Positions 48,304 through 61,444 of a stretch of DNA of 64,000 bases are shown here, one piece after another (the stretch's first letter is position 1; each line of letters opens with the position of its first letter). This DNA comes from a virus. The notes under the pieces are model-generated. The model was given only the letters and a program-made list of their open reading frames with translations. It did no database searches and was not told where the DNA came from. A program made the position numbers and the translations under genes. The DNA lies in IMG/VR virus record IMGVR_UViG_3300018481_000023, positions 1 through 64,000 of that record. One strand, given 5' to 3'.

Positions 48304-49953
48304 TTAGGCGTTGCCTGCCGGCGCGGGCATGAGGTAGTTGCGATCGACGCTCATATATGGCGACGGAGGCGTACCACCCGCGTTGATGGAAAGGGGCTCA
48401 AAGCCTGCACCCTGACCTTCGTAGGTCGGGACATCGGCAAGAGCGGCGAGATTCTCCAGCACCGGAATGTCGAAGCCGTTCAGCTCTTCTTCGCTGAACT
48501 TGTTCCGCGCATTCGCCTTTATGCTGTTCACCAGAACGGTCTTCTTCTGGTCGCGGAGCCCGATGGCTTCCGTCAACACGCCACGGAGAGCATCCGGAAC
48601 GGATTTAAGGAACACGTCGAGCGTCGGGGCCGCTTCAACAGTGGGAGCAGGGGCCGACTGACCGGATTCCTGCGTGCCTTCTGCCGGCGCGGCGGCGGAG
48701 GGAGCGAGCCCCTCCTGACCGGATTTTGCGGTCATAGCACCTACCTCTTCAGTTGTGGGACCCGAATTTACATCGACCGCCTGACGAGGAAGAATCTTCG
48801 TCATTAGGTTCACCGGCTCGGGGTCACCGGTGAAAGTAACCTTGCCCTCATCGGACACGGAATACTTGATCTGGTTGAATCCTTTGAACGCGTCATTGCC
48901 GTAGCAATAGAACACCGCGGAATCGGTCGTCATCGCCATAACGTCGACCTGCCACGATTCGACGCCCAACCTTTCAGGAAGGGCCTGATACACAGCCCGG
49001 CGGGCGTCATCAAGTGTAACCTCACCGCCCAACGCCTGGGCCGCTAGACCTTGGAGAGTTGTCAACCTCTCCCCGGCGATCTCTTCTTGATGAGCGGCCA
49101 CTAACGCGAGGGCGGCCGGCTCACTAGCCTCTGCAGCAATCGGCGGTGTCGTGCCCGGCGACGGGGCCGGATCTGAGGGCACTGGATTGCTGGGCGCCGG
49201 TGAAGGCGTTGGAGTTGGTGTCGGCGTGGGCGTAGGGGTGCCCTGAGCTGCCGTTGGTTCTGCGGAGGTGTTCATGCAAGGATCTCCTTGTGCACATGCG
49301 TCGCAGCAAGGAGGAGTACCCACGAGACGGATCTCTGGATGGGCTTCCAAAACCTGGAGACTGGATTGTGCGACGCGGTTCGTACCACACCCGTCAGCTA
49401 TTGTGCACGCACCTTGCTGATTGGGCAGGATGGCGAGATGGTCGGGAACAACATTCTCCCAACGCTGTGAAAAAGCTTTGCCTGCGTGGACACCTGGATT
49501 GAACCTAGTGTCCATAAAAATACCGACGGAGACATCAATGACTTCGCCGGAGTTGATGCGGTCTAGCGTTTCCTGGAACCTACCGTTGAGGGTAGCGACT
49601 CTGGCGTTATCGATCCACGCCTCCGTCTTGAGCTTCTTGTCCTCCACCTTGGTGTTGAACATGTAGCCCATGTTCCAGTCTTCAAAAATCTGCGGGTGAT
49701 TCGCCGAGACGAATATACCGGACACTTGGGGATGTCCCAGGACGATAGGGCGGCCGTCCCACGCAGATGGGTATTTGCCGAACTCGTTCGCCGCAGCAAA
49801 CTCAGGCTCGGTGGAATTGACTCCTTGGAGCACGCCTTCAACAATGGCGATGACCGGTACAACAGTGTACTCACGACCCTGCATGGTCTCGGTGCGGACT
49901 TTAGCGGTATCCGCAGCCCCCACCATCAAAGTCATGACACGGTTGAGGTCCAT
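48304..49953 (-). CDS. Prohead protease/scaffold protein (DUF2213)
   Basis: Promoter P12 lies inside the longer frame, so the ATG at 49953 (MDLNRVMTLM) is preferred, giving 549 residues. The N-terminal DUF2213 domain has GRPIVLGHPQ and DVSVGIFMD, in which His 74 and Ser 142 may be catalytic. A CDACAQGDPC cluster and a Pro/Thr/Ser linker (about 237-275) follow. A second domain and an acidic C-terminal scaffold-like part come next. It would drive capsid assembly and maturation. Confidence 0.8.
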   Translation of the reverse strand: MDLNRVMTLMVGAADTAKVRTETMQGREYTVVPVIAIVEGVLQGVNSTEPEFAAANEFGKYPSAWDGRPIVLGHPQVSGIFVSANHPQIFEDWNMGYMFNTKVEDKKLKTEAWIDNARVATLNGRFQETLDRINSGEVIDVSVGIFMDTRFNPGVHAGKAFSQRWENVVPDHLAILPNQQGACTIADGCGTNRVAQSSLQVLEAHPEIRLVGTPPCCDACAQGDPCMNTSAEPTAAQGTPTPTPTPTPTPSPAPSNPVPSDPAPSPGTTPPIAAEASEPAALALVAAHQEEIAGERLTTLQGLAAQALGGEVTLDDARRAVYQALPERLGVESWQVDVMAMTTDSAVFYCYGNDAFKGFNQIKYSVSDEGKVTFTGDPEPVNLMTKILPRQAVDVNSGPTTEEVGAMTAKSGQEGLAPSAAAPAEGTQESGQSAPAPTVEAAPTLDVFLKSVPDALRGVLTEAIGLRDQKKTVLVNSIKANARNKFSEEELNGFDIPVLENLAALADVPTYEGQGAGFEPLSINAGGTPPSPYMSVDRNYLMPAPAGNA

Positions 49954-49984
49954 TGCGCTCGCGAAATCCTTTCCTATATGACCC

Positions 49985-50039
49985 ATTATATTGGTAACTC
50001 TATGGACAGTCAAGTGGTCCATCAAGGAATCTTTGGGTC
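49985..50039 (-). promoter_or_regulatory. Leftward promoter P12 of the capsid genes
   Basis: On the minus strand TTGACT (50013-50008), a 17-base spacer and TATAAT (49990-49985) follow a GACCCAAAGATTCC element (from 50039). Here the element is 26 bases from the -35 box rather than 16-17. It is the only promoter found inside the virion block and gives the capsid genes their own start. Confidence 0.75.
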
Positions 50040-50372
50040 CTAATTGAGCTCCCTAATGTTCAGGTATCTCACAGTGACTAGTGTACGCGGAGGAGCTGAA
50101 GTAGTAACAACCTTGTTCTCCAGCTTATATTGGCTCCCGAGGGTACCCCCTTCAAGCCAGACCGACGTAAACTCACCACCCTCGGCAATACCTGGAACCG
50201 AATCAACTAGGGTCTCATCGGGACCAAAGATCTCCCACACAGACGTTGATACCATTTCACCTTCCGAGAGTGAGGAGCGCCAATCGAGGGTATAAAGCCT
50301 CTTCTCCTCCGGATGCTTGTTCGGAAAAGTATCCATGTGTCGCTGGGGAAGTACATTCGGGAACGGATCCAT
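50040..50372 (-). CDS. Hypothetical beta-rich virion protein, 110 aa
   Basis: The protein pattern (TSVWEIFGPDETLVDSVPG, LENKVVTTSAPPRTLVTVRYLN) looks like one Ig-like beta domain. It follows the large repeat adhesin by ten bases and closes the adhesion module before P12. Probably a virion component. Confidence 0.65.
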   Translation of the reverse strand: MDPFPNVLPQRHMDTFPNKHPEEKRLYTLDWRSSLSEGEMVSTSVWEIFGPDETLVDSVPGIAEGGEFTSVWLEGGTLGSQYKLENKVVTTSAPPRTLVTVRYLNIRELN

Positions 50373-50381
50373 TGGGGCCTC

Positions 50382-53300
50382 CTAATGCGCGTGAGTGGTT
50401 GTGTTTTGTCTGGGAGCGATGAGGGTATCGTCTCGTCCTCCACCGCTTCCAAGAACATCCGCCGATATCGTAACAGGGGCGTCGTCTGCTTCTAAGAACG
50501 CGGGCATCTTGATAACCTCTAGTATCTCCGGGATCCGATTCGCGAATAATCCCAATCCAGGATCAGTAGCGGTCTGTGGTCCTTGACCAGTAGCCAGAAG
50601 CAGCACATTACCGAAGTTAGTGTCGACACTGCCGTAGATCTCACCCATGATGGCTGAGACGGATGTGGCCTCCTCTAGGGTTACGTTCAGCGTGGCTCTA
50701 ATCTCTGTGGCCGAAGCCGTGACTAGTGTTAGCTCACCTAGGGTGGCGGTGAGGCCAGCGCCGAGTGCAAGCTTGGCAGAGGAAGATACCAACAACTCCT
50801 GCAGGGTCGCAGGCACCTGAGCTGTCAGTGCTAGGGTGGCACTGGCAATAGAGGTAGCCATGTCCAGCGTAGTATTGGTCTGCCCCGAGACTTGAGCACC
50901 ACTTGATGCGGCAAGAGTTAGGGGGGCTAGTGTGGCAGAGCCCGTAGCAGTGAGGGCTAGATAGCTTACACCTGCAGACAGCAGTGTCCCTAGCTGGGCA
51001 TTTACTGTAGCCGAACCTGCTAGTTGAGTTAACGTGCCGTTGGCGGTAGCCGTTAGAGCATCTAACGAGGGGGCAGCACTTCCCTTGATAGAAGAGGTCC
51101 CTGTACCCGTTGCAGTTAGGGCACTCAGCGTTTGGGAGAGAGTACTCTTCAGCGCCAGCTTGGCACCTGAGGAGAGCAGCATCTCTGCAAGGGTTTGAGT
51201 AGTGGAGGCCTTGAGCGCCAGCGTAGCTATGGAGGCTGAGGTTAGCGGCTCTAGTGTCGCCGCTAGGGTGCTACCGATCTTTATCGTGGCCGTAGAAGTA
51301 GAAGTCAACGTTCCTAGGGTTGCAGAGACAACACCTGAGCCCTCTACCAATATGGGGACTAGTACGCTCGTGGCATCTAGGACTAGTACTCCTAGTGTCT
51401 GTGCCGAAGACCCTGCAAGGGCTATCTTAGCCTGTGAAGCTGCAGTAAGAGGATCAAGCGAGACCCCCAGTGTTCCCGATAGAGGCGGACGAGTAGTTGT
51501 TGACGCCGCTGTGAGAGGGTCTAGAGCCTTGGAGAGGGTGCCTACAAGAGGTAGCTTACCAACACCGGCTCCAGTGAACGGATCGAGAGTAACCCCTAAC
51601 GTGCCCCCGATTGGCGGGCGTGTTGTAGTCGACGCCAGAACGAGTGGATCTAGGGTCTTAGAGAAAGTGCCTACTAGAGGCAGCTTGCCAACGCCAGCTC
51701 CGGTAAGCAGGTCTAACGTTTGTGCGAGAGTGCCCTTAACCTCCAGTTTGCTCTGCCCGGCACCTGTTAGAGTGCCCAGAGTCTGTGCGAGTGTGCCCTT
51801 GACGAGTAGGTCGGAGTCTCCTAGGACAGTAAGGGGGTCTAGGGTCTTGGAGAAGGTTGCCACGAGGGCTAGTTTGGATACACCAGCGCCTGTCAGGGGA
51901 TCGAGAGTAACTCCCAAGGACCCTACCACAGGGGGTTGGTCTACTATAGTAGCATTAGCTGCAAGGGTGAGTGGATCTAACGTCTTTGCGGAAGTAGCTA
52001 CTAGGGGCAGCTTGCCTTGGCCCGCTCCAGTAAGGGGATCTAGGGTCTGAGCGAGAGTACCCTTGAGAGGTAGATCAGTATCTCCCAGAGCAGTGAGAGG
52101 ATCTAGGGTTTTAGCGAGGGTAGCAGCGAGGGCCAGCTTGGACTGTGCAGCCCCAGTGAGAGGGTCGAGTGTTTGTGCTGAGGTAGCCTTCAGAGCCAAT
52201 GTGGATGTGCCCGCACCCGTTAAGGCATCGAAGGTAGCGTTCAGAGAGCCTAGGATTGTTACACCTAGCGTAGAGGCTAGGGTCAGGGCGTCAAGGCCAG
52301 TAGTCAATGTACCTACTATGGCAGGTAATGATACGGCCTGGACTTCGACCTGGGGCATAACACTATTTGTGAGAACCCCGATGTCGGAACCGGTCTCAAC
52401 CAGACGGAAGGAGATAATATCGTCGGGACTAGTATCCGCTATCTGAAGCTGGAGGGAAAAGACTAGTTCGGTATACCCATTGACATTGGTGATAGCTGGC
52501 CCAGCTATACCATCACCTTCATCAGCTACGCCGTTGTTAAATGTCCCAGTGCCTCCAGTAAGACGTGCTGCTGTTAGCGCGGCGCCGTCAGTAAAATTCG
52601 CAGAGGCAAAAGGCCGTACCATCGCAGACGAAGCATTGACATCATTCCAGCTTATGCCGTAAAAGTATTGCAACTGTACCGAAGAGGAGGAGAACGTAAC
52701 CCCCGACGTCATCTGCAAACGGTAACGAAGCTGAAAGGTAGGCGCACTCTCATAGCGGAAGATGGGGACCCCTTGAGCCTCGATCGCAGTTGAGCTGGCA
52801 AGTGGCCCATCTTCGTAGAATTGGTAGGCTGCAACGCTTACGGCTGCACCGACAGATACCTCCCAAGTGATACGAAGCTGACCACGCCCGCCTGCACCCG
52901 ATGCACCAGACGAAGAACCTCCGCCGCCTCCTCCTCCTCCAGGAGCGCCACCTACTCCGCCCGCGGCCGCAGAAGCACCTCCTCCTCCGCCTCCTCCGCC
53001 ACCACCTGCTGCAGCAGCACCTCCGGCTCCGCCAGACGGAGACCCTGAAGCCGCCATGCCTGTGCCTGTATCATCAAGGCCGCCCGCGCCACCTCCGCCT
53101 CCCGCGGCACTGCTCCCTTGATTGCCTTGCGGGCCAGCACCGTTAACACCCGGAGCTCCGCTACCTCCTGTGCCTCCTCGGCCGCCGCCGCCACCCTGAG
53201 CTGCTACACCGGCTGTACCCGCCCGAACAATAGTACCTAAACAATTAGCAGCTGCTCCCGCAGTCTGGTTATTAGCGCTGTCTGCGAGACACCCGTCTGT

Positions 53301-54137
53301 TGCCGACGTGGGCGCACTGTTGGTATTCTTCCGAACCCAGCAGTCGGATGGAGCTGCTCCGTTATATGTCTGCCCAGCAGGGACGTTGTAGTAGAAAACA
53401 TCTCCATTGGCACAAGGTATAATGTTAAATGCATGGGCTCCAGAGGCTCCTCCAGCCTTCTGTGCGGCCAAAGTTGCTGTTGAACCGCCTGCGCCCCAAC
53501 ATTCAAACTGTACCGCCGTAGTTCCAGCGGGTGGGTCGTTTCCACCAGCTCCGCCGACTGTAATTGATCCTGCTCCAGTCGCAGTAATCGTCTTGACAGT
53601 CGTGGCGGCTGCCGACTGAACCAAAAGATAGGGGCGATTTGAAGTGGCCTCACTGGCTGCTACTGTAGTGACAACCTGAATGGCGGCGGTATCTGTTCGC
53701 TGGTTTGGGCAATGACACATTAGCCCCCAAGAGGAAGATACTGGGACACTGGTTATCGAGCCTGATGCATATCCATTTCCCGGCATCGAGATAGTAGTGA
53801 CCAATGGTAGAGAAGCAAGTGCAGAACCTGCCCGGAAGTTATTGCTGCCAGAACCGCTCCAAGAAAATTCGCGTACCTCAACAATACTGGCACCAGACTT
53901 GACCGACGAGTAGAAGAGAGTCCCAGCTCCCTCGCCAACGAGCGACGACGTGTTGTAGTGTTGAAACGTCTGGTGAATAAGCCACGGAGCGGAGGAGGCT
54001 ATGCCGATATTAAAACCTGTGCCTCCAGTGAAAACCTGCAGGGTTCCCGCACCCTCACGCGCAGTGGCGAAGACAGTGTCCGAGCAGCTGACCCAGTAGT
54101 CGTCCGTGTTTGGGTAGAAGATATACTTCAGACCCAT
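50382..54137 (-). CDS. Repeat adhesin with Gly-rich and 21-residue repeat domains
   Basis: The 1,251-residue protein has an N-terminal beta region (1-200), a Gly-rich phage domain (about 205-425) with long Gly runs that resemble polyglycine-II adhesins such as gp38-like tips, a further beta domain (430-600), and then about 26 tandem units of 21 residues with consensus GTLAxTLDPLTGAGxxKLxL (605-1145). The rest is a short C-terminal part. No signal or membrane segment is seen. It is likely a surface fibre; its place between portal and capsid genes leaves open whether it is on tail or head. Confidence 0.75.
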   Translation of the reverse strand: MGLKYIFYPNTDDYWVSCSDTVFATAREGAGTLQVFTGGTGFNIGIASSAPWLIHQTFQHYNTSSLVGEGAGTLFYSSVKSGASIVEVREFSWSGSGSNNFRAGSALASLPLVTTISMPGNGYASGSITSVPVSSSWGLMCHCPNQRTDTAAIQVVTTVAASEATSNRPYLLVQSAAATTVKTITATGAGSITVGGAGGNDPPAGTTAVQFECWGAGGSTATLAAQKAGGASGAHAFNIIPCANGDVFYYNVPAGQTYNGAAPSDCWVRKNTNSAPTSATDGCLADSANNQTAGAAANCLGTIVRAGTAGVAAQGGGGGRGGTGGSGAPGVNGAGPQGNQGSSAAGGGGGAGGLDDTGTGMAASGSPSGGAGGAAAAGGGGGGGGGGASAAAGGVGGAPGGGGGGGGSSSGASGAGGRGQLRITWEVSVGAAVSVAAYQFYEDGPLASSTAIEAQGVPIFRYESAPTFQLRYRLQMTSGVTFSSSSVQLQYFYGISWNDVNASSAMVRPFASANFTDGAALTAARLTGGTGTFNNGVADEGDGIAGPAITNVNGYTELVFSLQLQIADTSPDDIISFRLVETGSDIGVLTNSVMPQVEVQAVSLPAIVGTLTTGLDALTLASTLGVTILGSLNATFDALTGAGTSTLALKATSAQTLDPLTGAAQSKLALAATLAKTLDPLTALGDTDLPLKGTLAQTLDPLTGAGQGKLPLVATSAKTLDPLTLAANATIVDQPPVVGSLGVTLDPLTGAGVSKLALVATFSKTLDPLTVLGDSDLLVKGTLAQTLGTLTGAGQSKLEVKGTLAQTLDLLTGAGVGKLPLVGTFSKTLDPLVLASTTTRPPIGGTLGVTLDPFTGAGVGKLPLVGTLSKALDPLTAASTTTRPPLSGTLGVSLDPLTAASQAKIALAGSSAQTLGVLVLDATSVLVPILVEGSGVVSATLGTLTSTSTATIKIGSTLAATLEPLTSASIATLALKASTTQTLAEMLLSSGAKLALKSTLSQTLSALTATGTGTSSIKGSAAPSLDALTATANGTLTQLAGSATVNAQLGTLLSAGVSYLALTATGSATLAPLTLAASSGAQVSGQTNTTLDMATSIASATLALTAQVPATLQELLVSSSAKLALGAGLTATLGELTLVTASATEIRATLNVTLEEATSVSAIMGEIYGSVDTNFGNVLLLATGQGPQTATDPGLGLFANRIPEILEVIKMPAFLEADDAPVTISADVLGSGGGRDDTLIAPRQNTTTHAH
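50700..52320 (-). repeat. Array of ~26 coding repeats of about 63 bp
   Basis: The repeat unit at protein level is about 21 residues (TLDPLT core). At DNA level the copies are diverged but many share a GATCTAGGGT-like core on the plus strand, which fits unit duplication followed by drift. Confidence 0.75.
52880..53225 (-). repeat. Gly-rich low-complexity coding segment
   Basis: The stretch codes for long runs of Gly with Ala and Ser (about residues 303-418 of the adhesin). Such runs form polyglycine-II helices in known phage adhesins (family knowledge). Confidence 0.7.
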
Positions 54138-54484
54138 TATCTTGGCTCACGTGCCATATCTGGCATTCCTCTGTCCTCCGAGAAGGAGTAGAAACCAAAC
54201 CCGGTGTAGAACTTTAGTAACTGTCTCCCTTCCAAAACAAGACCGTTAAACCCGTCTACTGGAGAAGCCAGCAGCTTCAGTATGACTCCATGACGATCAG
54301 CAGCCTCGCATAGAGCAGCCATCGCTTCGCGTCCTGCACCACGCTGTTCCGCTATGACACGATCAATTACAACAGCGTCCGGAGACTCCTTGAGAACTAC
54401 CTTGCATTTCCCAAGGGATGTCTTCATAGAATCTCCATCCCCGAAGAACTGCCAGAACTCTGAAAAGAAGCCAGCATAGCTCAC
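54137..54484 (-). CDS. GNAT-like N-acetyltransferase
   Basis: VVIDRVIAEQRGAGREAMAAL (about residues 38-58) matches the acetyl-CoA-binding motif of GNAT enzymes (R/Q-x-x-G-x-G/A), and LLKFYTGFGFYSF is the closing motif. The 115 residues are short for the family, but similar small GNAT proteins occur among phage virion genes. The substrate is unknown. The stop overlaps the adhesin start as TAATG. Confidence 0.7.
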   Translation of the reverse strand: MSYAGFFSEFWQFFGDGDSMKTSLGKCKVVLKESPDAVVIDRVIAEQRGAGREAMAALCEAADRHGVILKLLASPVDGFNGLVLEGRQLLKFYTGFGFYSFSEDRGMPDMAREPR

Positions 54485-54831
54485 CGACGGGCATTTTCAA
54501 GAAGCATCTTGACCTCTTCCAAGAGTTGTGCAGCGGTCACATCCTCGGGAAGTTCAATAGATCCCAACACGAGAACATCCCGCTCTGCATCAACTCTAGG
54601 ACGACTACCGAAAGCCGGACAAGAATAGCGAACAACAAGTGCCGAATGGCCTTCTTTCACCACCTCTCTCATGTCATAGAAGCCATCGACCTCGCAGAGC
54701 TCATAGTGAGGCCCTGTGACACTTTCACACTGGGTCAGGACATACTTGATGCCCGCACGCTTGTAAGAGAGGTCAAGCAGACCCTTCCCCGCCTCAGCAA
54801 GCCTGTCGAATACTGCCCTGCCCTTCAGCAT
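54481..54831 (-). CDS. Hypothetical protein, 116 aa
   Basis: An alpha/beta chain with three Cys (TQCESV, ELCEVD, SCPAF) and a C-terminal helix (AQLLEEVKMLLENARR). It overlaps the GNAT start as ATGA. No family is recognised. Confidence 0.6.
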   Translation of the reverse strand: MLKGRAVFDRLAEAGKGLLDLSYKRAGIKYVLTQCESVTGPHYELCEVDGFYDMREVVKEGHSALVVRYSCPAFGSRPRVDAERDVLVLGSIELPEDVTAAQLLEEVKMLLENARR

Positions 54832-54841
54832 GGTCTACCCC

Positions 54842-55243
54842 CTAGGCGTTGGCATCCGTTAGGGTGAAGGACGTGATCGAGAACGCTTGGCCGAGGGCGA
54901 AGTTGGTGTTGTCCACGATCATATCTGCGCCAGACGTTCCGACAGTACCCTGAAGGTGCTGGGTCGTGCCGTCAGTAGCATAGATCCGGAAGTGCTGTGC
55001 AACACCGGCCGCATCGGCAGAGTTGTCTGCCCATGAACCAAGCATTGTCTTTGCGCCGGCAGCGGCATCGTTCATCCAGTTCGCCGGAAGAGCGAGTGTT
55101 GCAAGCACAGTACCCGCATCAGCAGCGGCTACGTTAGCAGGCGCTGCTCCTGACCGAATCTTGAGAACAGCCGAAGCGCCGATGGCAACCTCGATGGCAT
55201 CGAGGCGCGCATTACGGACAGCAGTGGATAGTTGAATAGCCAT
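54842..55243 (-). CDS. Virion-type protein, paralogue A, 133 aa
   Basis: It starts with VRNARLDAIEVAIGASAVLKI and continues with GTVLATLALPANWM, a pattern found in many phage structural loci. It aligns over its length with the neighbour at 55280-55681, so the pair arose by tandem duplication. Probably a small virion or decoration protein (inference from context). Confidence 0.7.
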   Translation of the reverse strand: MAIQLSTAVRNARLDAIEVAIGASAVLKIRSGAAPANVAAADAGTVLATLALPANWMNDAAAGAKTMLGSWADNSADAAGVAQHFRIYATDGTTQHLQGTVGTSGADMIVDNTNFALGQAFSITSFTLTDANA

Positions 55244-55279
55244 GGTAATCCTTTCCTTCTACCTAGTTTCTATACCTAA

Positions 55280-55681
55280 TTAGCCGTTGGGCTCGTTAAT
55301 GGTGAACGCAGTCACTGCGAACTGCTGTCCAACGGAGAAGTTGACGTTGTCAACGGTCATGTCGCCGCCACCACCAGTGGCTGTGACTGAGCCTTGCACG
55401 TGACAAGTCGCTCCCTGATGGATGCGAAAGTGCCCAGCAGCGCCAGCTGCATCAGCAGCGTTGTCCTGCCAGGAACCCAGCATTCCCTTCGAGGCGTTAG
55501 CCGCAACGGCCATCCAGTCCGAGGGCATAGCGATGGTAGCCAACACCGTTCCAGAGTTCGCTGCTGCGCAGTCAGCCGGTTTCACTCCCGTACGGATAGT
55601 CATGGTTGGTGAAGCGGCAATTGTGGCCTCGATAACATCGAGTCGTGCGTTACGCACCGTCATTGAGAATTGTAGAGCCAT
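55280..55681 (-). CDS. Virion-type protein, paralogue B, 133 aa
   Basis: It shares with paralogue A the VRNARLD start, SGTVLATIAMPSDWM, the MLGSWQDNAADAAG motif and the FSVGQQFAVTAFTI end. It differs mainly in an extra Gly stretch (TGGGGDMTV) and two Cys. Same length as paralogue A. Confidence 0.7.
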   Translation of the reverse strand: MALQFSMTVRNARLDVIEATIAASPTMTIRTGVKPADCAAANSGTVLATIAMPSDWMAVAANASKGMLGSWQDNAADAAGAAGHFRIHQGATCHVQGSVTATGGGGDMTVDNVNFSVGQQFAVTAFTINEPNG

Positions 55682-55717
55682 ATGTGCCTCCTGTAAGTGT
55701 TATGGTACTGTAGTATC

Positions 55718-56395
55718 CTAGGTTGTGTCGAGTTCCCAACAACAAGCGCCCCACGGCTGCTGTCCTGGAGAAGCGCCCCAGTTGATGCCTGTTGCTGTCT
55801 CACCTCCATTACGGTACATGAGTTCCCACATCAGGCTCGGTGTGGTGATATTTGCTTCAACATCCTCGGTGTAACCCGCACGGGCTGAGATAACACCAGC
55901 CTGTTGAGCCACAAACCCACCGAAGATAATACTTGCTGGTAGCGGTGAGCTGCTTAGCACCGGACCTGGAACACTGGCAGCAGATGTGTTGTTGACCTGT
56001 TGCCCTTCAGAACGGTTGGCAAGTGCCCCAACTTTAGTCACTCCCGTAATCCGCCACACAGCAATACCACTGCCCTGGTGGCTGCTTGCAGTAGATGTAA
56101 TCGTGATAGATCCTGATCCAGTAACAAAGCTGTCACGGATGTGGAATATGAGTGCCATAGTAGCAGAGGCGTCAGGCCAGGTCGCGACAGTCGCTGTGTA
56201 GGTACCTCCTGCGCTGTCAGTGACAACCTGGTTAGCGGAGACTGTCGAAATCGTGGCTACAACATACGTCTCACCAATCACACGACTTGATATAACCAGG
56301 GTCTTATCTGTGTCGTTCGTGTCAAAGGTAGTACCAGCGAAAGTAACTACCGCTGGAGCTTTCTGCTTACCGAACAAGGCTTTGAATGGCATCAT
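55718..56395 (-). CDS. Beta-sandwich virion protein, 225 aa
   Basis: The chain has the alternating pattern of a jelly-roll or lectin-like domain (TITSTASSHQGSGIAVWRITG, SSPLPASIIFGGFVAQQAGV, WGACCWELD). It lies right behind the large fibre gene. Probably an accessory or adhesive virion protein. Confidence 0.65.
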   Translation of the reverse strand: MMPFKALFGKQKAPAVVTFAGTTFDTNDTDKTLVISSRVIGETYVVATISTVSANQVVTDSAGGTYTATVATWPDASATMALIFHIRDSFVTGSGSITITSTASSHQGSGIAVWRITGVTKVGALANRSEGQQVNNTSAASVPGPVLSSSPLPASIIFGGFVAQQAGVISARAGYTEDVEANITTPSLMWELMYRNGGETATGINWGASPGQQPWGACCWELDTT

Positions 56396-56399
56396 CTGC

Positions 56400-59240
56400 T
56401 TATGCTTCCGTCATTATTGAGGTAATGTCCCACTTGGTATCGAGCGAGTTGTAGATCATGCCGATGTAGGTTGTCTTGCCACTGACCAACGCTGTCGGCA
56501 AGGTCACACCTATGGCGCGGTAGATTGCAGCAAAGCCGATCGAGACTGCGGCAGTCGCTTTAATCCTGATAACGTGGCCGAGGCCGTCAGATACTGTACC
56601 GGTCGGTGCATTGACAGTCAGGCCAACCGTTTGAGTTGTACGGACGGATATATCGTTGGCAATGTTAGGCGTGATGCCTGCGTTGCTGGTTGTAGAACCA
56701 ACGACCGGCGTCCTCAAGGACTCGATCTTGTCGTAGACCGCGTCCTTGGTCGGCACTGCGTTCGACCCGTTCCAGCCAGCCGCATAGGCGTCAGCTGCTA
56801 CTGTAAGGACACCAGCCGAGGATATGGTGACGACATCAGCGGTACCATTGTAGAACCGGAGCGTGTCGGTGTTGTTGTAGATAGAGAATGTACCTGAACC
56901 ATCCCGGTCGACGCATTGGAATGCGCCCGACGCCCCGGTTACAGAAACGATCCCAGTTACCGAGCCGCCTGTCAGAGGGAAGAAGAGTTGCAGAGCGTCA
57001 TACACAGCATTCCTAGATGGAGCAGTTGTGCCATCGCCATTCCAGCCAGTAGGATAAGCGCCATCGCTAGGAGCGCCTCCAATCGCAACGCCGTTGATCT
57101 TGTATGTCTCGCCGGTTGGCAGGTTAATGCCGGTGCTATCGATGGTAGCTCGCGTCGTGCCCGTCGAGCTTAAATGAATAGGCCCGTCGAGTTCCTCGAT
57201 GAATAGCGCGTTGCTGCCTGTCCGATAAACTTGGGCGCGAACCATACCGCCATTGTCGATGATCCGAAACGCGCCTTGCGCCAGCCCGCCCGCGCCGTCC
57301 GTGTCCCAGCAATCAACCGCAGGATTGGCCGATTGCACCCTGATAAGTGCTCCGGTCGAGGTGATGTTGCCCGTCGCAGTGACAACGCCAGTAACTTCTA
57401 AGCCAGTCGCTCCGAGTGTCGCATAAGTAACGGTCTGCGCCGTATTTTTGAAGGCGAAAGCGTCCCAACAGAGCCAACCATGACTGCCGAGAATTGACCC
57501 GGTATCCTGCATTGTCCCGCCGCCGAAGGCGCTTTGAAACCTTAAGGAAGAGTAATAATTGGTCGCTCGGATTGTGACGCTGCAGTCGGCGTCGGCAAGT
57601 GCAATGCCTGGCCCAAAAAAGTTTGCGCCGCCGTTAACACTTAATCCGTTTGTATCGAGTCCGGCGCAGTTGATCGACCTGTCCAAGTTGTCGAACGCAT
57701 GACTCGCTGCACAATGAACAAAGCCACCACCATGAACGAGCAGCCGCCCACGCGAAGTCATCGCTCCGCCAGCGGTGATGTAATAGTCGTGGAACTGATA
57801 ATAATTAGTCGAGTAGTAGTTCATTGTCAAATCGGTAGGCGCGCCGACCTGAGGACCGAACGAATGGTAGTTTCCGTAGGCACCAATGTTTCCAGTAACA
57901 TTCACAATGCCTGTAACGTTTAGACCAGTGCTGCTAAACGTCGCCCAATCCGTGAAGTCTGCTTGTGCGGCTGAAGGAGGAGTAACGCCACCAATGATGA
58001 CGTTTTGCGTATACTGTGAAAACAGGCGGGTCGCATATTTGCCACCAGCATAGCCGAGTTCAATGCCGTTTTCGGCAACCCCCGCATTGTCATAAACAGA
58101 AACGCCGGGATTGCGGTTTGTGCCGCTGGCGGCAAGCGCCAAATTGGCGTTGACTCCATTTAACACGGACAATCTGCCCGCGTTGGTTAGGGTCATGCGG
58201 TCCGCGCCAGCGGAATAGAAACGGAGCGTATCGGTATACGCCATAAGCAAAAAATTGGCGGTATAGTCGCGAGCGGTTACATTGATAGTCGCGCTTGCTC
58301 CTTGGGTGCCAACAGGGCCATCAACCATTAGCCCTGCGCTGCTGATCGTGGCAAAGGCGACGCTATTGGCACGGTTCTTAAAGGTCTGGGTGTCGCCGCA
58401 GTAAGTCACCGTCGCGCCGGAGGCTCGAAGACTGAGGCCATCGTTGGTAGAAGCGGTACCCCTCAAGTCGATGGTCGAGATCCCCGAGGTGGGGTTGAAC
58501 GTCAACGCAGGACTGGCCGCCGAGATGGTGACGTTGCCTGTGATGGTTCCACCCGCTTTGGCAAAGCGCAGCTCCATTTCGTCATACACGGCGTTTTGGC
58601 TAGGAGCTGTAGTAGTTGTGCCATTCCAACCGGTAGGATATGCAGTATCAGAGACTACGCCCGAACCCATCGACTGGATTTTGGTGTAAAGCGCCCCCTT
58701 GGTGGGGACTTGCAGTGAGCCACTCCAGCCTGCGCCATAGATTTCGTCTGTGACCGTAACGTAGCCGGTTACAGCAACGCCAAGCGAGGAGAAGACTGCA
58801 CGCGTGCCACTACCTGCCCGATTACGGACAGAGAATGTATCACAGTCGAGAAAGCCGGTGTTAGCACTGGCTTGCATACGAATGCCGTCGGATCCGGCGT
58901 TGGTGCCTCGTAGGGAGAGATAACTATCACCCGTCGTCGGGTTGATAACGATTGCCGCAGTCGCGTAGGAAACCGTTAGGGAACCAGTCATGGTCCCGCC
59001 GGCTTTAGGCAGTCGTAGTTCCATCTCGTCATAGACGGCATTCTTGGAAGGTGCAACCGCAGTAGCTCCATCCCATGATACGGCGTAGGGGGTGTTATCA
59101 GCAGAAGCGGGGGCTAGGGCCGCCTTGATCGTTGAGCCTTTGGCCTTCATGCCGTCGCCGTTTGCTTTGACGACGTACATCCAGTCAAGATCGGCAAGGG
59201 CCAGAGTTTCAAGGTGGCCGGTTAGTGCCTTATTAGTCAT
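56400..59240 (-). CDS. Large fibre protein with repeated YPTGWNG modules
   Basis: The 946-residue protein holds several copies of a module with YPTGWNGTTTTAPSQNAVYD and GGTITGNVTI (at about residues 50, 205, 730 and degenerate copies). This is a common design of phage side fibres. Long beta stretches follow each module, and the C-terminus ends in an Ig-like region. The start overlaps the upstream stop as ATGA. The plain copies at both ends and an unusual composition in the middle suggest mosaic assembly. Receptor binding is the likely role. Confidence 0.8.
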   Translation of the reverse strand: MTNKALTGHLETLALADLDWMYVVKANGDGMKAKGSTIKAALAPASADNTPYAVSWDGATAVAPSKNAVYDEMELRLPKAGGTMTGSLTVSYATAAIVINPTTGDSYLSLRGTNAGSDGIRMQASANTGFLDCDTFSVRNRAGSGTRAVFSSLGVAVTGYVTVTDEIYGAGWSGSLQVPTKGALYTKIQSMGSGVVSDTAYPTGWNGTTTTAPSQNAVYDEMELRFAKAGGTITGNVTISAASPALTFNPTSGISTIDLRGTASTNDGLSLRASGATVTYCGDTQTFKNRANSVAFATISSAGLMVDGPVGTQGASATINVTARDYTANFLLMAYTDTLRFYSAGADRMTLTNAGRLSVLNGVNANLALAASGTNRNPGVSVYDNAGVAENGIELGYAGGKYATRLFSQYTQNVIIGGVTPPSAAQADFTDWATFSSTGLNVTGIVNVTGNIGAYGNYHSFGPQVGAPTDLTMNYYSTNYYQFHDYYITAGGAMTSRGRLLVHGGGFVHCAASHAFDNLDRSINCAGLDTNGLSVNGGANFFGPGIALADADCSVTIRATNYYSSLRFQSAFGGGTMQDTGSILGSHGWLCWDAFAFKNTAQTVTYATLGATGLEVTGVVTATGNITSTGALIRVQSANPAVDCWDTDGAGGLAQGAFRIIDNGGMVRAQVYRTGSNALFIEELDGPIHLSSTGTTRATIDSTGINLPTGETYKINGVAIGGAPSDGAYPTGWNGDGTTAPSRNAVYDALQLFFPLTGGSVTGIVSVTGASGAFQCVDRDGSGTFSIYNNTDTLRFYNGTADVVTISSAGVLTVAADAYAAGWNGSNAVPTKDAVYDKIESLRTPVVGSTTSNAGITPNIANDISVRTTQTVGLTVNAPTGTVSDGLGHVIRIKATAAVSIGFAAIYRAIGVTLPTALVSGKTTYIGMIYNSLDTKWDITSIMTEA

Positions 59241-59794
59241 AGAACCTCCTCGCTCAGGAATAGATCCGTGGCGATGTCTTGCATATTGGGTTCGAGCAGC
59301 ATTAAGTCTGTACCAGACTGTATAGCGCCCTCAAGTAGTAATCCGAAGTATTCGATGGTCAAACTCGATGTCTGAGTGGTAGCCGGATCGAGCGTAGCAA
59401 TGACTAGACCCACACGTCCAAGCTCGGTTGTCTGATCCAAGGTGACAGGAGCAAGTGTAATCGTCATTGCCGCGAGGATCTCTCGGCTGATTACACTGAG
59501 CGTGTCGGCTGGGGCCAGAGTCGCTACGACCACGCCCTCCTTGCCATGCTCACCAGCAGCCACCGAGCTGGCGAAGCCCAGTGTTTCGTTGGTTACGGCC
59601 TCGATACCTATCGATAGGACGGCAATGAGGAAGGCCTCGTCGAGAGTAGTAAAGGAGACCCCCACTCTCTCCAGCATACCTGTGATGGTAGCAGTGACTG
59701 GAGCTAGCGTATTAAGGGTAGCTCCGTAGCGACCCCGCGGCGATACATAATCGCCTTCCAAAATGGCAGTCTCATCCGGTATAAGGATGGGCAC
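59237..59794 (-). CDS. Portal-proximal protein with 21-residue repeats, 185 aa
   Basis: The protein contains units such as VVATLAPADTLSVISREILAA and MTITLAPVTLDQTTELGRVGL, the same 21-residue type as in the large adhesin (TLDPLT core). The start is uncertain. The GTG at 59794 has no clear ribosome binding site, and the frame stays open and protein-like upstream (ending at a TAG at 59893) without a standard start codon. A frameshift or unusual start near 59880 is possible. Confidence 0.6.
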   Translation of the reverse strand: MPILIPDETAILEGDYVSPRGRYGATLNTLAPVTATITGMLERVGVSFTTLDEAFLIAVLSIGIEAVTNETLGFASSVAAGEHGKEGVVVATLAPADTLSVISREILAAMTITLAPVTLDQTTELGRVGLVIATLDPATTQTSSLTIEYFGLLLEGAIQSGTDLMLLEPNMQDIATDLFLSEEVL

Positions 59795-59929
59795 TCCGAT
59801 GCTGGAATCGAACGTATATCGAGGCGGGGTGTACTTCGTGGTCCGATCCTTTCGCTCGTACTGGTCGTCCGCAGCTAAGCGGGGCGGGTGCTACGGTGAT
59901 GGCAATTCTACCGCACTTCGGTTCTACGC

Positions 59930-61444
59930 TTAGGAACCATCTTCCGGGAACTCCGCAAGGAGTTTCTGATCGGTTGAGAGCCCGATAATACGGCGTGCTT
60001 CGTCTCGAGTAATAAGAGCCTCCTCCGTAACCGCCTCCTTTCCCTCCTGTCCCTCACTCCCAGGAACAACCGTGCCGTCAGGTAGAGAGCTTTCAGGAGT
60101 AGCAGGAATTGCATCGACGCCCTCCTCGATGATGATGGGCTGCATTCCTTTCTGGATGTTGGCGAGACTCCTTGCAGTTTGAGCCGCCGTTTGGCCTCGC
60201 TCCAGGGGAGACATACGGTACGCGTCAGGCCATAGGCAGCGGGCCGACTTAATGTCGGTATCGGCTGGCAATGGGGTAATTCCGTTATTGATAGCCCACA
60301 TGACGAATGGCCAGATTATTCTAGGTTCAGCATGTAGCTCTCGGTACTCTTCGATTCGTTCTGCCCAGGAGGCCTTGTCCTGAGACGAGGCCAATTGTCC
60401 TGCTTCGGAACCCAGGAGAATGCGCTTGGGGATTCCCGAGGTACCGGAGATGAGGGTAAGGAGGACGTCGAATGCGCCCCTGGGGTCTGCCACCTTCGCC
60501 ATGAGATTCTCAATCTCAACCCCACGGGTCCGCATTGCACGTCGGAAGCCATGCTCATACTCGTCCACCTCAGCAGTAAGGTTGAGTTCATCTTCCTCGT
60601 CGAGATCCATATCCTTGTCGACATTGATGTGCAGGCCGGGATAGCTTTGCTTCCAGTAGGATTCGCTGGAGGCACCCACAACCTTCATCAGGTCGGTCAG
60701 GTAGTTCCAAACCGGAGCATATTCGGGGATACCGAAGACGTTGGATGTAAGGATGCCACGACTAATGTGAAGAACCCGACTGTGGTGAACATCGAAGGCC
60801 GAACCTTGGGGACGTGTGTCCGTATCGACTAGGCCCATACGATCTTCGCCGGCATTACGAGTAGTAGAGACCGGAGAGATGGTATACATCGTAGGCTGGC
60901 CGAAACGGGGATTCATAGGATCCCGTTCCCAATCCTTGATCTTGACCTGCGTTTCGCCATAGGGCTGAAGGTAGGTGATTTGAAGAGTGCCGGCGCCACC
61001 TTTGGGAATAGGCAAATCGATACGTCCACGGTTAGTGCCAATGAGAACAATGGCAAAACGTCCTAGACCGGCAAGGATGTCGGCACGACGGAGTACGGAC
61101 CAGAGATCACTGTCCCATGCCAGGCGGGCAAATTCTTGACTCCACTCAACCTGATCCGGAAGGTAGATCCTGGGGGGCCGTCCCCATGTTGAATCGGGTT
61201 TGGCCTCGACTAGGCGCTTGGCGATTCCACCTCGGGTGTACATGTCGTACATCTGCTGGACGTTGAGTTGGAGATCCCAACCGAACGCCTCGTATAGATC
61301 ACGTTTCCCGCCAAATTGGACGCCCATTTGCCGAGCCCAGCCGGCTCTTTCGAGCATAAGGTAGACCCGATTCATGAATCCGCCACGAAGTTGCCCTTTA
61401 TCAGGGTTATTGGCTGCTTCTGTGATCCGAGGCCGCGTAGCCAT
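59930..61444 (-). CDS. Portal protein (DUF1073-type)
   Basis: The 504-residue sequence begins RVYLMLERAGWARQMG and includes FGWDLQLNVQQMYDMYTRGG and YEHGFRRAMRTRGVEIENL, as in the DUF1073 portal family. It builds the dodecameric vertex for DNA entry and exit. It follows the large terminase with a TAATG overlap. Confidence 0.9.
   Translation of the reverse strand: MATRPRITEAANNPDKGQLRGGFMNRVYLMLERAGWARQMGVQFGGKRDLYEAFGWDLQLNVQQMYDMYTRGGIAKRLVEAKPDSTWGRPPRIYLPDQVEWSQEFARLAWDSDLWSVLRRADILAGLGRFAIVLIGTNRGRIDLPIPKGGAGTLQITYLQPYGETQVKIKDWERDPMNPRFGQPTMYTISPVSTTRNAGEDRMGLVDTDTRPQGSAFDVHHSRVLHISRGILTSNVFGIPEYAPVWNYLTDLMKVVGASSESYWKQSYPGLHINVDKDMDLDEEDELNLTAEVDEYEHGFRRAMRTRGVEIENLMAKVADPRGAFDVLLTLISGTSGIPKRILLGSEAGQLASSQDKASWAERIEEYRELHAEPRIIWPFVMWAINNGITPLPADTDIKSARCLWPDAYRMSPLERGQTAAQTARSLANIQKGMQPIIIEEGVDAIPATPESSLPDGTVVPGSEGQEGKEAVTEEALITRDEARRIIGLSTDQKLLAEFPEDGS

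Follow-up and report, generated by a model that had tools for sequence, protein, structure and literature searches.

What does a repeat common to two neighbouring phage proteins tell us about their fold, and do the proteins act together? We analysed a window of 64,000 nucleotides (positions 1 to 64,000 of IMG/VR record IMGVR_UViG_3300018481_000023), for which a sequence-only reading had proposed about 26 units of a 21-residue repeat in an adhesin and several units of the same period in a 185-residue protein next to the portal. Here, the adhesin is called A and the shorter protein B.

50382..54137, minus strand: protein A, 1251 aa (open reading frame and repeat count), composed from N to C terminus of a non-repeat region, a glycine-rich stretch, a beta-type region, an array of 26 units of 21 residues and a short C-terminal tail
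52863..53240, minus strand: glycine-rich part of A, approximately residues 300-425 (translation)
50628..52307, minus strand: array of A, residues 611-1170, 26 units (repeat count; AF2 all-beta model of residues 602-911)
59237..59794, minus strand: protein B, 185 aa from a GTG start, adjoining the portal gene (open reading frame)
59342..59719, minus strand: six units of B, residues 26-151, with an exact period of 21 (register scoring and profile)

Both estimates were accurate: we counted 26 units in A and six in exact register in B. The units of A start at residues 611, 632, 653 and so on to 1150, and their consensus is L-x-x-T-L-D-P-L-T-x-A-x-x-x-K-L-x-L-x-[GA]-T. Their spacing is mostly exactly 21, with a few units of 22-26 residues, and the lag-21 autocorrelation of A lies 16 s.d. 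above that of shuffled sequences (identity 0.326 versus 0.117). At identical residues, codons agreed between units in 0.298 of the pairs, compared to 0.275 expected from codon usage. As the codons are about as diverse as random draws, the likeness among the units is kept at the protein level and the units are old; a recent tandem DNA duplication was thus ruled out as their origin. Codon diversity in most other arrays resembled that of A, with some excess in the loci L018 and L030. No Pfam family matched A, including the Gly_rich_2 and LamG adhesin heads that are matched in its relatives, and the N-terminal 600 residues gave no match to a known binding domain. The composition of the glycine-rich part resembles the Gly_rich_2 head of the relative L050, which matches PF21722 (E=1.4e-14).

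In B, TL dipeptides recur at residues 29, 50, 71, 92, 113 and 134, and the autocorrelation reached z=7.5 at lag 42 and z=4.4 at lag 21. Pairwise BLASTP of A versus B was not significant (E 0.35), so the likeness between the two proteins is visible through the repeat alone. Scored against a matrix derived from A only, the six in-register units of B exceeded all 3000 shuffles of B as well as all 5000 column permutations, and just one of the 21 rotations fitted. B was also detected among all ORFs of 35 loci and the window (E=2e-6) by a profile that combined 192 units of A and of twelve relatives and left B out. When the 64,484-base record was searched with another B-free alignment (A2), A and B were retrieved and no other ORF (E=1.1e-9 for B). 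Zero matches were obtained among 7837 shuffled ORFs, while the control with reversed sequences was uninformative because reversed repeat proteins themselves match the profile. The repeat likeness of A and B is genuine and exceeds chance, and the earlier proposal of a repeat common to both is strongly supported.

B is, however, not a recent offshoot of A. When arrays were ranked by their similarity to B, those of other phages included, A took only rank 12 of 54, which rules out such an origin and makes the common repeat alone weak evidence for a partnership of the two proteins. Charged residues occupy 3.1% of the core positions in A and 10% in B. Position 18 of B's unit is charged in four of the six units, so the last third of the unit departs from the repeat family (positions 18-21).

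The GTG start of B is not accompanied by a ribosome-binding site (59837-59852 region, minus strand). An in-frame ACG at 59839, located 7 nt after AAAGGA (59852-59847), is possibly the better start and would add 15 residues; the open frame around B comprises 217 codons. Such an ACG may represent a non-canonical start codon or else a base difference in the record.

Judged by their sequences, A and B are members of one widespread, unnamed phage family built on the 21-residue repeat. We collected 68 non-redundant proteins with 709 distinct units and 3-32 units per protein, nearly all from IMG/VR and some from cultured phages. Of about 630 intervals between units, 467 measure 21 residues, 22-25 being the commonest departures from this period; the family-wide consensus reads L-x-x-T-L-D-x-L-T-L-A-x-x-G-x-V-x-V-x-G-T. 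Unit flavours vary (TLDPLT, TLGALT, TEANDT, TQDDQT, KTMSSM), but the 21-residue frame is constant. A designed query consisting of the repeat consensus only retrieved 27 IMG/VR loci. Scans of IMG/VR with single proteins (B, the array of A, the portal) confirmed nothing, and nothing came up when A's array, B or the designed repeat was compared directly with named phages by tblastn. In GTDB genomes, none of the 593 pattern matches of the designed query was confirmed, hence there is no sign of common prophage carriage.

Among cultured phages, profile searches identified gp39 of Caulobacter phage Seuss (YP_009785549, 1e-17), P26059A_0007 of Curvibacter phage P26059A (ASJ79159, 7e-8) and, weakly, the 'minor tail protein' gp32 of Mycobacterium phage Papyrus (0.004); the autocorrelation of all three peaks at 21. 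Microcystis phage Mwe-JY26 encodes a variant of 23 residues, immediately ahead of its Gp77-type gene. The Seuss and P26059A proteins, both annotated as 'hypothetical protein', carry 21-residue arrays like A and B, but lack the large N-terminal adhesin region of A and show other unit flavours (KTMSSM..., TEVNDS...). That the repeat belongs to no named family holds for A and B: no Pfam family fits it, PHROG gave no match to either protein at E<=1, and nothing above chance was found in NCBIfam or the PDB. A profile match of A or B to a known different repeat family was looked for, and none was found. Within the wider family, 5 of 20 arrays are matched by PHROG 17035 ('minor tail protein'; best E 2e-10), which recognises neither A nor B.

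Some arrays carry a fused domain, either the lectin-type LamG (L010, L015, L017) or Gly_rich_2 (L050), and the short repeat proteins of the close relatives L101 and L107 differ in length by one unit, so array length varies. In L005 (6959-9103), a fused C-terminal domain resembles Phage_min_tail (PF05939), with a score below cut-off. The C-terminal tails in L007, L045, L054, L075, L083, L090 and L111 fall into few types (a coiled coil ending in acidic-LLLLA, ...AVWARSLP, short Arg-rich repeats, and W-T-P repeats), which probably represent different docking tails.

A and B are encoded together with further genes between those for the portal and a protease-like protein:

48304..50025, minus strand: DUF2213 / head-maturation-protease-like protein, downstream border of the module
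50040..50372, minus strand: Gp77-type fibre-tail adaptor, directly downstream of A (PF23148, E=2.7e-12, 47.5 bits with a curated cut-off of 27; PDB 8jou_D, E=2.6e-4)
54137..54831, minus strand: two small ORFs (116 aa and 115 aa) that separate A from the garland pair and lack a clear match
54842..55243, minus strand: garland-type protein, copy 1, 133 aa (phrog_3758, E=3e-32)
55280..55681, minus strand: garland-type protein, second copy of 133 aa, sharing 57% identity with the first
55718..56395, minus strand: 225-aa protein without a family match (ORF; Pfam and PHROG searches)
56400..59240, minus strand: 946-aa fibre-like protein, translationally coupled to B, its start overlapping the stop of B (ATGA)
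59930..61444, minus strand: portal protein, upstream border of the module (phrog_146, E=1e-57)

The portal, protease, capsid, tail tube, tape-measure and tail-tip proteins of the window are closest to those of Brevundimonas phage StAshley and of the fragment L119 (portal identity 43% and 53%, respectively; tail tube 57% to L119). The whole attachment module is absent from these nearest relatives. The portal-protease junction (48304-61444 region) spans about 9.8 kb in the window versus a gap of 154 bp in L119; StAshley carries an endonuclease gene at this position, L120 a 192-aa glucosaminidase-like gene, and P26059A a set comparable to that of the window (a 133-aa protein, a 302-aa protein and the repeat protein). 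In this phage group the junction is prone to insertions, so A and B belong to one accessory module at such a site. This context suggests that both are virion proteins.

Of 20 non-redundant repeat loci, 14 contained the garland-type gene, the sole recurrent neighbour of the repeat gene; where the repeat gene lay away from a contig edge, the share was 14 of 15 loci. Terminase, the next commonest neighbour, was found in few loci. Scanning in reverse, we detected the repeat in 39 of 50 loci that each extended at least 4 kb downstream of a garland-type gene, at a median distance of 823 bp downstream. Garland-type genes occur on at least 567 IMG/VR contigs, and Seuss and P26059A, like the window, have one in the same genome stretch as the repeat gene.

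The garland-type profile matched PDB 44nx_B (6e-9) and, modestly, 9rkv_A (E 0.0065), a 141-residue chain of PDB 9RKV (7-7-1 tail fibres). It also matched the 7-7-1 structural proteins 7-7-1_000103 (E=1.7e-9), which has 141 aa and whose gene immediately follows the putative tail fibre gene _000102, and 7-7-1_000105 (E=9e-18). From length, chain number and gene position we infer that 9rkv_A is the garland protein of 7-7-1. Agrobacterium phage 7-7-1 has two garland-type genes (L118 3387-3812 and 4334-4765), the second of which (000105) is closer to the family of the window. Garland proteins surround the 7-7-1 tail fibres (PMC12796354), garland dimers are arranged around tail fibres and spikes (PMC12796354, PMC10811340), and the two garland proteins of Milano have a T4 gp8-like connector fold (PMC10811340). 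The two 133-aa proteins of the window are homologues of these garland or BW3TFN connectors (Milano gp125/gp127, 7-7-1, T4 gp8-like), and a pair of paralogues is likewise found in Milano and 7-7-1 (PMC10811340). Milano and 7-7-1 differ from the window in their contractile tails with spikes and fibres; the 21-residue repeat had no match in the parts of 7-7-1 that were searched.

A Gp77-type adaptor gene directly follows the repeat gene in the window, L097, L099, L101, L107, L113 and the L078 group. The ORF at 50040-50372 belongs to the same family (PF23148) as Gp77 of Ralstonia phage GP4 (PDB 8JOU). GP4 is a podophage, whereas the record of the window encodes a 1354-aa tape-measure-like protein, that is, a long tail. 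In L078 (8590-9411), a fusion of Gp77-type and DnaT_2-like domains lies directly downstream of the repeat gene, and relatives of this protein follow repeat genes in six loci.

The sequence-only reading had further suggested that the common repeat points to a coil fold, perhaps a beta-solenoid, and possibly to assembly of the two proteins with each other. Across the 709 units, hydrophobic and polar positions alternate, and charged residues make up 3.5% at ten putative core positions versus 12.3% elsewhere. With a repeat-derived alignment, AF2 (monomer) modelled residues 602-911 of A, with 20 array rows, as a regular all-beta stack (pLDDT 71, pTM 0.63) with one eight-residue and one three-residue strand per unit. 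The model of B was unusable (pLDDT 43) and was left out of the fold search. Foldseek of A's array model found no match among solved structures (best E 0.91). Among viral models, the best match was an uncultured Caudovirales protein (probability 1.00, TM 0.61, E 0.05), and Seuss gp39 was listed as well, independently of the sequence profile. Array profiles had no match at E<1 among PDB sequences; the sole hit, the beta-helix 3LYC, a short-rung beta-solenoid, was not significant by either sequence (E 1.2) or Foldseek (E 7.7). AF2 over-predicts solenoids, with confident false ones for perfect or near-perfect repeats (PMC11795689); this worry is lessened, not removed, because the units of A are imperfect and their core is uncharged. 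Based on the regular all-beta model and the alternating pattern, a beta-solenoid is plausible for the array of A; it is unproven, with no solved Foldseek counterpart and no usable model of B.

Phage fibres are usually trimers, and an alternating hydrophobic pattern with Gly/Pro turns suits trimeric beta shafts too. The repeats might hence build a trimeric fibrous shaft (a triple beta-spiral or beta-prism, as in adenovirus or phage fibres) instead of a monomeric solenoid, with the same role in attachment. AF2 was applied to the monomer only, and no PDB solenoid was matched, both of which are compatible with this arrangement; yet the monomer already folds into a regular beta stack in the model, and the only PDB sequence match, albeit non-significant, is a beta-helix that recurs among the Foldseek matches. 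We consider a trimeric shaft possible, with the odds against it. Far less probable is that B resembles A merely through convergent composition (rich in T, L, A and G) and a chance period. The non-significant BLASTP comparison and the poor AF2 model of B would fit such a coincidence, but the six-fold spacing in B is exact, its score is register-specific, and the B-free profile detects it at E=1e-9 while matching no further ORF of the record and no shuffled ORF.

A and B might also bind each other via the common repeat, for example by end-to-end stacking of rungs, with B capping or extending the rod of A. Both lie in the same module, and L101 and L107 too encode a long (361 aa) and a short (162 and 138 aa) repeat protein with similar C-terminal tails; but B is not specially close to A among the 54 arrays, and most modules contain a single repeat protein, so we judge such binding unlikely. 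Equally doubtful is a role of the module as head or neck fibres rather than tail fibres. Its site among head genes by the portal, the corresponding position in P26059A and the repeat genes that adjoin protease, head-completion or connector genes in L037, L050 and L051 argue for it. However, the garland and repeat genes come after the tail genes in Seuss and Papyrus, Gp77 is a fibre-tail adaptor, and the garland homologue of 7-7-1 is located at the baseplate although it is encoded between terminase genes (PMC12796354).

Our preferred reading, with a probability of roughly 0.62, is that A serves as a receptor-binding adhesin built on a rod of beta-rich repeats, with B as a short companion in the attachment complex, within the family and module described above. 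The array would form an elongated beta-rich rod, perhaps a solenoid, and with one turn per unit that of A would measure about 26 x 0.48 nm = 12 nm. As receptor-binding adhesin, A would carry its N-terminal and glycine-rich domains on this rod, whose end would be tied to the virion via the Gp77-type adaptor encoded beside A, while the two garland-type proteins would hold the fibre network containing A. B, which consists almost entirely of repeat, may serve as cap, spacer or alternative rod in the same attachment complex.

Modular phage fibre repeats are a known kind, and the 21-residue repeats form a large unnamed family among them. A 21-residue repeat protein was found close by in most of the garland-gene loci examined, and nearly all of these proteins are annotated as hypothetical. 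A much broader picture, in which the repeat is a distinct, portable beta-rod that provides a length-adjustable receptor-binding arm across unrelated environmental phages, nearly always with garland connectors and in some cases as a composite rod of two unequally long proteins linked via their repeats, is speculative and in our view improbable. Whether the array is a solenoid or a trimeric shaft, and which partner sits at which end, is testable in the cultured phages Seuss and P26059A. The repeat is a common, unnamed building block, probably a rod of adjustable length, in the host-attachment machinery of many environmental phages, and naming the module would make host attachment easier to approach in many phages that are uncultured.
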